From IMG/VR virus record IMGVR_UViG_3300032050_001009, positions 1-20,573 of that record: a DNA stretch of 20,573 nucleotides. One strand, given 5' to 3'. This document shows, piece after piece, positions 4,374-5,788 of the stretch. Source of the stretch: a virus. The first letter of the stretch is position 1. Every line of letters begins with the position of its first letter. The notes beneath the pieces were generated by a model. It did not search any database, was not told where the DNA came from, and saw nothing but the letters and a program-made list of their open reading frames with translations. The translations under genes and the position numbers were made by a program.

Positions 4374-4652
4374 TTATTGGGCGCATAAACCCCAAGTTTC
4401 AATTGACTTTACGTTTGATCGAGTGACGCCTAGTTCGCGGCAAATGAAGCGAGCTATCGCCTTCTTATTGCTTTGTAGGGTCATGTCGCAGGGGTACTTT
4501 ACGCCCGCCCCCTGAATGAGGTCTGCGGGACTCATCCCTAGTACGCGAGCGCAGAACTTGACGTCCTGTCCAAGGTAGAAGTTTCTGCCGTAGGCATTGA
4601 GTGTCCAATCGTGTGAGAAGCCGTAGCCTCCTGTCGTTACTGAAATTGTCAT
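4374..4652 (-). CDS. Conserved phage hypothetical protein
   Basis: A 92-residue protein. It begins MTISVTTGGYGFSHDWTLNA, then FYLGQDVKFCARVLGMSP (residues 25-42), and ends ARFICRELGVTRSNVKSIETW. The G-Q-D-V-K-F-C-x-R-V-L-G-M core and a final W-x-L-C recur in phage hypotheticals, with no assigned role. The frame is open to 4721, but that would run through the hairpin at 4683-4713, so the ATG at 4652 is preferred. The leader therefore contains one hairpin, and the tRNA-like element lies further upstream. Confidence 0.6.
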   Translation of the reverse strand: MTISVTTGGYGFSHDWTLNAYGRNFYLGQDVKFCARVLGMSPADLIQGAGVKYPCDMTLQSNKKAIARFICRELGVTRSNVKSIETWGLCAQ

Positions 4653-4682
4653 TGTATTAAGATTTAAATTGTTTCTAAAGTA

Positions 4683-4741
4683 AAGGGAGGTCAACCGTTG
4701 CCGACCCTCCCTTCGTTGCATTTCAAGCCCTGCTATGCAGG
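4683..4741 (-). promoter_or_regulatory. Two hairpins in the leader of 4374-4652
   Basis: AAGGGAGG (4683-4690) pairs with CCTCCCTT (4706-4713), extended by TC/GA with one bulged base. Next to it, CCTGC (4729-4733) pairs with GCAGG (4737-4741) around a three-base loop. On the minus strand the large hairpin is followed by TTACTTTAG, so it could act as a weak terminator or attenuator. The small hairpin abuts the 3' end of the tRNA-like element at 4744-4785. Confidence 0.45.
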
Positions 4742-4743
4742 AG

Positions 4744-4785
4744 AACAGGAGCGGGAATCGAACCCGCCTTGCTCCAAGTCCTGTT
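4744..4785 (-). ncRNA. Mini tRNA-like element: acceptor stem, 4-bp hairpin and T-arm, no anticodon arm
   Basis: On the minus strand, AACAGGA (4785-4779) pairs perfectly with TCCTGTT (4750-4744) as a 7-bp acceptor. Inside are CTTG-GAG-CAAG (4778-4768, 4-bp stem and 3-base loop) and then GCGGG-TTCGATT-CCCGC (4767-4751), a canonical 5-bp T-stem with a T-loop of consensus form (TTCRANT). Every base of the 42 is in a helix or loop and there is no room for an anticodon arm. No CCA is encoded (CTCC follows). It starts on the second base of the TAA stop of 4784-5179. A 12-bp acceptor/T-arm stack is the minimal substrate shape for RNase P, so it may be an mRNA processing site. It could also be a decayed tRNA or part of an attachment site. 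Confidence 0.6.
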
Positions 4786-5179
4786 ATTTTACTTCGTCGG
4801 CGTAGTCCTCGTACTCAAGGAAGTACGCCTCGTCGAATTGATACCTCTCACCCTCGAAGTTGTCATTGTACACCAATGAATCGATTACGGTGATTGATGG
4901 GTAGTTGACCTGCCTGTGTCGGTATGGTATGCACTCCTGTGTAAGCAGAGCGCATAGCATTCTACCCATCAACTCAGCCCACCTGCCATCCTGATACTCG
5001 GATGAGTGTGCGACCCGCACCACGGCTGTAGGCTCGACGTTTGACTCGTACTCGCCATTGCGGAGTTGAACCTGCACTGACTCGTTGGTGCTTCCGAATG
5101 CGTTGTTAATGAAACGAGCGAGATGCTCGTAGTTGAATGGGTTATTGTTTAATCCGATGTTGAAAGTTGTGTACTTCAT
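4784..5179 (-). CDS. Conserved phage hypothetical protein (131 aa)
   Basis: A 131-residue protein. It starts MKYTTFNIGLNNNPFNYEHL and continues with a mixed alpha/beta centre (VQVQLRNGEYES, then EPTAVVRVAHS). A helix with Cys residues follows (RMLCALLTQECIPYRH) and the tail is very acidic and Tyr-rich (EAYFLEYEDYADEVK). No known domain is recognised. It is preceded at 12 bases by 5192-5394. Its stop codon forms the first bases of the 42-nt tRNA-like structure, so cleavage at the 5' end of that structure would cut through the stop codon. Confidence 0.6.
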   Translation of the reverse strand: MKYTTFNIGLNNNPFNYEHLARFINNAFGSTNESVQVQLRNGEYESNVEPTAVVRVAHSSEYQDGRWAELMGRMLCALLTQECIPYRHRQVNYPSITVIDSLVYNDNFEGERYQFDEAYFLEYEDYADEVK

Positions 5180-5191
5180 TGGTTTATTGAA

Positions 5192-5394
5192 TTACTTGTT
5201 AAAGAACATTGTGTTGAATGCTGATTTGATGCGCTCTTCTTGTTGGAAGTAGTCCTCATCAACTTGATGAAAGCCCTTGCGCTTCATGACCGCGAGGAAG
5301 TTGGCCTCGTGCCTGTCATCGTTGATTGTCACTTCCATGGGGAAGGAATAGCCGCCTGTCTTGCGGAAATAAAACGATTTTACTTTGTGTGTCA
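5192..5394 (-). CDS. Small hypothetical phage protein
   Basis: A 67-residue protein with ATG at 5394: MTHKVKSFYFRKTGGYSFPM, then EVTINDDRHEANFLAVMKRKG and an acidic/aromatic segment (DEDYFQQEERIKSAFNTMFF). The same frame is open for 74 more codons to an ATG at 5617, which would make a 141-residue protein with an Asn/Lys/Gln-rich front (MACKKAQQRNINPAV). That extension would translate straight through the tRNA-like element at 5411-5487, so the short form is preferred, but the longer one cannot be excluded. No family is recognised. Confidence 0.55.
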
Positions 5395-5410
5395 TTTTAT
5401 TAAGTTTTAG

Positions 5411-5487
5411 CGCAGCAGAGGGACTCGAACCCTCGCCGATGCCATTATCCTCGGATATATGGCATTGGATCACCTTGATTTGCTGCT
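5411..5487 (-). ncRNA. Atypical tRNA-like element with extended hairpin instead of anticodon arm
   Basis: On the minus strand, GCAGCA (5486-5481) pairs with TGCTGC (5417-5412) as the acceptor. Then come ATCA-AGG-TGAT (4-bp stem, 3-base loop, at the D-arm position) and a long hairpin in which ATGCCAT pairs with ATGGCAT and inner TATC pairs with GATA. The T-arm is GAGGG-TTCGAGT-CCCTC (5434-5418). The T-loop is canonical, but no 5-bp stem with a 7-base anticodon loop can be drawn, and CCA is not encoded. It shares the 4-bp/3-base mini-hairpin with the element at 4744-4785. It may be a tRNA pseudogene, a tRNA-like processing signal or a miniature tmRNA-like fold; the class is undecided. Confidence 0.55.
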
Positions 5488-5788
5488 GGCTTTTGTTGTT
5501 GTTATAATTGTCATTTGCGGCACATTTGCCTTTGCGAGCAGTCACGTTGTTAGTGTTAACTGCTCCCCACATTACTGCGGGATTTATATTGCGCTGTTGC
5601 GCTTTTTTACAGGCCATTGCGGTACTCTGCTTTTTACTCCCGTGCTATTTACACGGCTCAGGTAAGTTTTGCCTGTAACTCCTAAACTCGTTACTGACTG
5701 GCTGCCGAATGTTGTCGGCTATTTGCGGGCTTACTCCCGTCGCGTCGTTGCCTTCGCGCTCACCCTTTTTTCTGATCAGGAAAGGGAA
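5488..5788 (-). other. Leader region with a series of small hairpins, no clear gene
   Basis: Several short stems lie here: GCGC/GCGC followed by six T on the plus strand (5591-5608), CCGTG/CACGG with a 7-base loop (5640-5656), GCCGA/TCGGC (5704-5719), and CGGG/CCCG just after it. An Asn/Lys/Gln-rich frame (start 5617) reads in frame into 5192-5394. I see no other gene. The density of small stems suggests a structured untranslated leader for the minus-strand operon. Confidence 0.35.

Follow-up and report, generated by a model that had tools for sequence, protein, structure and literature searches.

The 42-nt tRNA-like element

The subject of this study is a 42-nucleotide (nt) transfer RNA (tRNA)-like element in the IMG/VR virus record IMGVR_UViG_3300032050_001009. 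The window, by which we mean the whole stretch of 20,573 nt that was analysed, is a phage fragment encoding a BT4734-like/PriCT primase, and the element lies on its minus strand between two protein genes, starting inside the stop codon of the upstream one (Table 1). Because the cultured-phage relatives of the primase infect mostly Flavobacterium, Cellulophaga and other Bacteroidota, the host of the window phage is likely a member of the Bacteroidota.

Read on the minus strand from 4785 to 4744, the letters are AACAGGA CTTGGAGCAAG GCGGG TTCGATT CCCGC TCCTGTT, which form a stack of 12 base pairs (bp) of acceptor and T-stem with a canonical T-loop. A preliminary description made from the sequence had claimed that three helices, a 7-bp acceptor, a 4-bp mini-hairpin (CTTG GAG CAAG) and a 5-bp T-arm, use all 42 bases, and RNAfold returned exactly these helices (-16.4 kcal/mol, z -2.3). 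It had also placed the 5' end of the element within the TAA of the upstream gene. Since this TAA occupies 4786-4784, the second base of the stop codon is indeed the first of the element.

The fold alone is weak evidence, because 200 shuffled windows yield 29 matches to a loose tRNA-like descriptor whose insert may be anything from 6 to 49 nt. We therefore rely on covariance models of the family described below. Model R2, whose seed of 26 elements comes from unrelated phages only and excludes the window's own phage group, has its sole complete match in the window at 4745-4784(-), with 41.6 bits and E=3.6e-8. Model R1, whose seed includes the window element, detects it with E=1.3e-9. Judged from these comparisons, the 42-nt element is real, the evidence of the family being decisive and the fold alone not.

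The element has a T-arm with the GG-TTCGANTCC loop of tRNA and the 12-bp acceptor/T-stem stack. At 42 nt and with no anticodon arm it is not a tRNA cloverleaf, and ARAGORN found no tRNA genes within the window. Rfam 15 gave no match above the gathering threshold in the window, so the element is in no Rfam family; a permissive Rfam search of 4600-5560 reached 20 bits at the top, on the antisense strand, against the 65.7 needed.

Table 1. Features around the tRNA-like element in the window.
Feature	Positions	Strand	Evidence or remark
tRNA-like element, family A, 42 nt	4744..4785	minus	sequence, RNAfold, covariance models R1 and R2
Acceptor of family-A element	4785-4779 / 4750-4744	minus	
Insert of family-A element	4778-4768	minus	CTTGGAGCAAG
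T-stem of family-A element	4767-4763 / 4755-4751	minus	
T-loop of family-A element	4762-4756	minus	TTCGATT
TAA stop of upstream gene	4784..4786	minus	last two bases are the first two of the element
Upstream gene, 131 amino acids (aa)	4784..5179	minus	homologues 54-100% identical in related contigs
Hairpin CCTGC ATA GCAGG	4729..4741	minus	sequence; 2 nt past the element
Second leader hairpin, GGGAGGGTC...GACCTCCC	4682..4713	minus	kept with changes in related phages
Downstream gene, 92 aa, MTISVTTGGYGF...	4374..4652	minus	ATG 4652-4650
tRNA-like element, family B, 77 nt	5411..5487	minus	alignment over eight phages
Gene behind family-B element, 67 aa	5192..5395	minus	ATG 5395-5393, 15 nt past the element

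Conservation and anatomy of the family

The family of such elements (family A) was sampled as 95 distinct perfect copies from 61 loci, collected on the 12-bp stack rule. The letters of the stems differ among the copies and the pairing is retained. For instance, a pattern of T-arm plus acceptor matched in 12 IMG/VR stretches, and in these contigs variant stems such as AACACGG..CCGTGTT and AAACAGG..CCTGTTT were still paired. We also used a looser pattern made of the insert and the T-loop only (TGGWGCA, 1-9 nt, GGTTCGANTCC). Among the matches listed in the fetched loci, 75 of the 223 distinct sites had the complete 12-bp stack, the length from T-loop to cut site in an RNase P substrate, against 3.7% when the 5' flanks were swapped among sites.

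Compensatory changes, whose lack in homologous loci would have spoken against the preliminary description, are abundant. Alignment A2, with a seed chosen for pairing, had a covariation score of 0.91 against 0.19 after shuffling. With a seed chosen for full pairing the score was 1.04 against 0.21, and 110 cells against 26 were changed on both sides. Since these seeds were chosen for pairing, the detection of the window element by model R2 is a cleaner test than the alignment statistics. Several pattern matches with TTCGAAT loops resemble ordinary tRNAs and were excluded from the seeds, and four matches in viral contigs (L325, L330, L331, L337) resemble the 3' tRNA-like part of transfer-messenger RNA (tmRNA) genes.

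The common plan of the family, about 40-46 nt in size, is a 12-bp helix whose 5' strand takes up an insert, usually 8-14 nt long, behind its first 5-7 bp. A G-C pair closes the T-loop, which mostly reads TTCGATT, TTCGACT or TTCGAGT. The insert consists of YTGGWGCA and a few further bases, and its GG is almost invariant: GG was present in 62 of 64 elements (expected 22.6) from 19 loci that were found without requiring GG, at least one copy per locus having originally been found via TGG. In tRNA, the D-loop presents a GG that pairs with the T-loop, so the simplest view of the insert is as a D-loop that has shrunk. Judging from the letters, it is probably a bulge, a reduced D-loop mimic whose GG would dock on the T-loop. 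Inserts such as CATGGTGCAAG, TTTGGAACTGG and CTGGAGTTTAG cannot form the 4-bp mini-hairpin, so that the window element is a special case. Many members of alignments A2 and A6 are likewise unable to form it, and the mini-hairpin was dropped as a conserved helix; what the preliminary description had taken for a helix is better described by its conserved part TGGWGCA, above all the GG.

Past the acceptor, where RNase P substrates offer a 3' RCC(A) contact, the second base (N74) is C in 65/95 copies, N75 is T in 49/95 and N76 is A in 50/95. This is a CCA-like trend of N-C-Y-A, with a true CCA as the exception (L254). Hairpins with 5 or more bp begin no further than 8 nt downstream in 54 of the 95 elements; the corresponding counts are 13.6 for shuffled sequence and 17 for the upstream control. 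The trailing hairpins of locus L344 (GCCACAACGTCGTGGC, GCCCAACTTCGGGC, GCCCGACGTTGGGC) vary in their stems between copies and keep the pairing.

Position of the elements relative to genes

In whole records the copies cluster in a single block of about 1-5 kb, with 11 copies in L254 (69 kb), 9 in L105, 8 in L297, 6 each in L299 and L098, and 4 each in L258 and L214. All 52 elements of nine array loci lie on the coding strand. Among their intervals longer than 150 nt, 28 of 36 contain exactly one open reading frame (ORF), and the distance from a stop codon to the next element is mostly -1 to +11 nt. The elements in arrays thus stand at the ends of coding regions and on the coding strand, as punctuation would. 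The order is stop codon, element, short hairpin and next start codon; in a typical L254 unit the stop is followed by 7 nt, the element, CCCA, the hairpin, a leader and an ATG about 40 nt on. The preliminary description dealt with one element, which now appears as a member of a repeated gene-by-gene system.

The proteins encoded between elements in L254, L105, L258 and L214 are mostly small, and the arrays may mark an accessory or early gene region. In L098 (3451-4668, reverse complement), seven elements lie 53-149 nt apart with one gap of 482 nt, and there is hardly any ORF between them.

The coupling of elements to trailing hairpins directly after stop codons could also indicate a stabiliser of messenger RNA (mRNA) ends that works without cutting, either as a tRNA-like 3' barrier or CCA-tailed end against exonucleases or as a 5' leader structure of the downstream gene. 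Plant-virus tRNA-like structures have such a role. A plain hairpin would suffice for this purpose, however, leaving no need for the tRNA-specific T-loop, the GG or the 12-bp ruler, all of which unrelated phages have kept, and the elements stand between genes inside gene runs rather than at the ends of runs. We consider a stabiliser unlikely, but the best placed of the alternatives.

A stop-like triplet (TA|A or TA|G) shares its third base with the first base of the element in 38/95 copies, several of which are in-frame ends of upstream ORFs. The split stop codon of the preliminary description therefore recurs. In other arrays the stop is mostly 2-11 nt upstream of the element; the overlap is not general, and therefore removal of the stop codon is not the core function. 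The 38 overlaps would also suit a structure that slows termination or couples neighbouring genes with no RNA cleavage. Such translational control is improbable in our estimate, since it leaves the tRNA-specific features unexplained and most array copies lie past the stop.

With one element per small gene, variable stem letters and a conserved shape, and with the same element beside different genes in related phages, the arrays could further be compared to integron attC sites, that is, to folded single-stranded DNA hairpins that swap cassettes in a variable region of small genes. The conserved letters are nevertheless those of the tRNA T-loop and D-loop and not of attC; the core sites RYYYAAC ... 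GTTRRRY were absent from the window flanks and from family alignments A2 and A6, and most members do not start with AAC. The strict coding-strand orientation, the stop adjacency and the attached leader hairpin indicate RNA, and no integrase was found among the ten window proteins scanned. A DNA recombination site is thus very doubtful, marginally more so than translational control.

In the window, the upstream gene product (131 aa, 4784-5179) had no match in a Pfam and PHROG search. Homologues of the downstream gene (4374-4652) stand behind the same element in L006, L007, L012 and L016, and in related phages the same element and leader precede different genes. The hairpin at 4729-4741 is the equivalent of the hairpin trailing many family members. 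The leader (4653-4743, minus) is conserved, with several hairpins and the repeated letters GCAACG, and could be a regulatory leader in its own right.

The window carries a second tRNA-like element of another build (family B). It has an acceptor, a 3-bp D-arm with GG in the loop, and the T-arm GAGGG TTCGAGT CCCTC, and an elongated 7+4-bp arm with no usable anticodon loop replaces the anticodon arm. Over eight related phages, 99.1% of cells are paired and 16/27 pairs changed on both sides. A listed ORF (5192-5617) runs through this element; the gene probably starts at 5395 instead. Families A and B occur in the same phages and in the same kind of location, and finding two differently built tRNA mimics in like positions makes it more credible that selection acts on tRNA likeness itself.

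Family A is found almost only in phage contigs. In the genome contigs of 85k bacterial and archaeal species, searched with one pattern in a scan that scores only part of its candidates, 1 of 17 sites folds, compared with 21 of 27 new ones from viral contigs. The sole folding genome site is in an 11-kb contig of an Aliivibrio metagenome-assembled genome (MAG), which holds three copies (G033:C134 7509-8435; L282, L340-L342) and is probably a phage contig; it is the best lead to a culturable host. The other 149 of the 150 Vibrionaceae genomes searched had no pattern match, and a stricter pattern of the window's type had 0 matches in genomes. On these counts an element of the host chromosome was rejected. 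DNA searches of cultured phages, of limited coverage, with eight element-bearing loci gave no match except for L105, which carries a tRNA-Met gene and of which at most 2% was covered among the matches listed. Seven cultured phages reached via shared proteins were without the element. As far as sequences tell, unrelated phages carry the same architecture with different letters.

A family that is almost phage-only and comes in multi-copy arrays might act as a decoy, with a build-up of excised mini-tRNAs keeping host tRNA enzymes or tRNA-sensing defence proteins busy. A decoy would not require the intergenic placement, the stop adjacency or the strand coherence, and the elements lack the anticodon, which is the target of most known tRNA-based defence. 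We rate this idea unlikely too, slightly below the stabiliser. A decayed tRNA gene would have a tRNA-type T-arm and acceptor with the other arms missing, as seen here; such a pseudo-tRNA remnant is ruled out by the compensated stems, the multi-copy arrays, an insert motif that hardly varies and an architecture shared by unrelated phages, and we give it hardly any credence.

Proposed mechanism and comparison with known systems

We propose that the elements are intercistronic processing signals that act by tRNA mimicry ("tRNA punctuation"), with a cut by RNase P on the 5' side, and consider this probable, although far from certain. The elements are taken as processing signals because the ruler, the T-loop and the elbow letters are kept while the rest drifts, and because they are intergenic on the coding strand. 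On binding the acceptor/T stack, RNase P gauges a set distance from the elbow (PMC4919913). In a polycistronic phage transcript, the element would fold as a tRNA acceptor/T-stem stack, and the bulged YTGGWGCA would restore the elbow by docking a D-loop-like GG on the T-loop. Measuring 12 bp from there, RNase P of the host would then cleave at the element's 5' edge, either at the upstream stop or directly behind it, and RNase Z or exonucleases, as 3' tRNA-processing activities, may cut past the acceptor. The excised mini-RNA would be discarded, the upstream mRNA would gain a defined 3' end, and the next gene would become a monocistronic mRNA starting with a short protective hairpin. For the window element, the 12-bp ruler predicts an RNase P cut between 4786 and 4785. 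This agrees with the view in the preliminary description that the acceptor/T-arm stack has the shape of a minimal RNase P substrate positioned to separate two cistrons. Where the stop codon is overlapped, this may tie cutting to the end of translation.

In its broader form, the proposal is of a widespread phage system in which minimal tRNA mimics let host RNase P cut operons gene by gene, often inside a stop codon, and a 5' protective hairpin follows each mimic. Phages would then have their own version of mitochondrial tRNA punctuation, one that works without any real tRNA, and we give this somewhat better than an even chance.

Several points weigh against the processing signal. The case is built from sequence, with both cleavage and transcription as one unit being inferred. 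The CCA is mostly not encoded. A cut at an overlapping stop would produce a non-stop mRNA, a seemingly costly outcome unless the message is translated before it is cut. The spacing in L098, with hardly any ORF between elements, is not explained by simple gene punctuation; this array possibly releases several small RNAs rather than mRNAs. In the window's class 1, GGAGCA can pair instead with the 3' flank, and this pairing competes in the folded leader. Finally, the same review that sets out the ruler describes the D-loop as dispensable for RNase P (PMC4919913), so the GG may be conserved for a different tRNA-binding partner.

If processing by tRNA mimicry is correct, many uncultivated phages would share an undescribed RNA-based route from polycistronic to single-gene messages via a host enzyme, tRNA punctuation would extend beyond organelles, and RNase P would have natural substrates of minimal size, about 40-46 nt. 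It would explain how tiny phage genes in runs are expressed separately, and would pose a testable puzzle, the fate of ribosomes on a message whose stop codon has lost its last base to the cut. With the covariance models and the array loci, annotating and testing the family is easy. In the open full-text literature, a scope that leaves out most subscription journals and all preprints and is therefore no proof of novelty, we met with no account of minimal tRNA mimics arranged serially in phage operons.

Like the tRNAs of mitochondrial punctuation, the phage elements are tRNA shapes between protein genes, and cuts that split stop codons are known in animal mitochondria. Unlike these real tRNAs of organelles, the phage elements are only about 40-46 nt long and cannot decode. 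Armless nematode mitochondrial tRNAs are of comparable size and keep the anticodon arm, which the phage elements lack. Minihelix substrates of RNase P include model hairpins of acceptor plus T-stem-loop, and the natural non-tRNA cases of phage M3 RNA and the phage C4 antisense RNA precursor (PMC11143913). The phage elements share with them the 12-bp acceptor/T stack and T-loop that RNase P measures, but are natural, repeated, placed between protein genes and equipped with a conserved GG bulge, their cleavage being predicted. Plant mitochondrial t-elements also resemble tRNA and lie at the ends of mRNAs, where RNase P and RNase Z cut them, and they are not aminoacylated (PMC11658184); t-elements are defined by descent from tRNA genes, whereas the phage elements are minimal and serial and have no known parent tRNA (none was searched for). 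Theta ribozymes near gut phage tRNAs are also RNA-processing devices in phages of Bacteroidota and Bacillota, but they are self-cleaving with a fold like that of hepatitis delta virus (HDV), and the text of that paper does not mention tRNA-like elements (PMC10879173). As a kind, tRNA-like processing signals are already known, and it is the setting and the minimal form that appear to be new.
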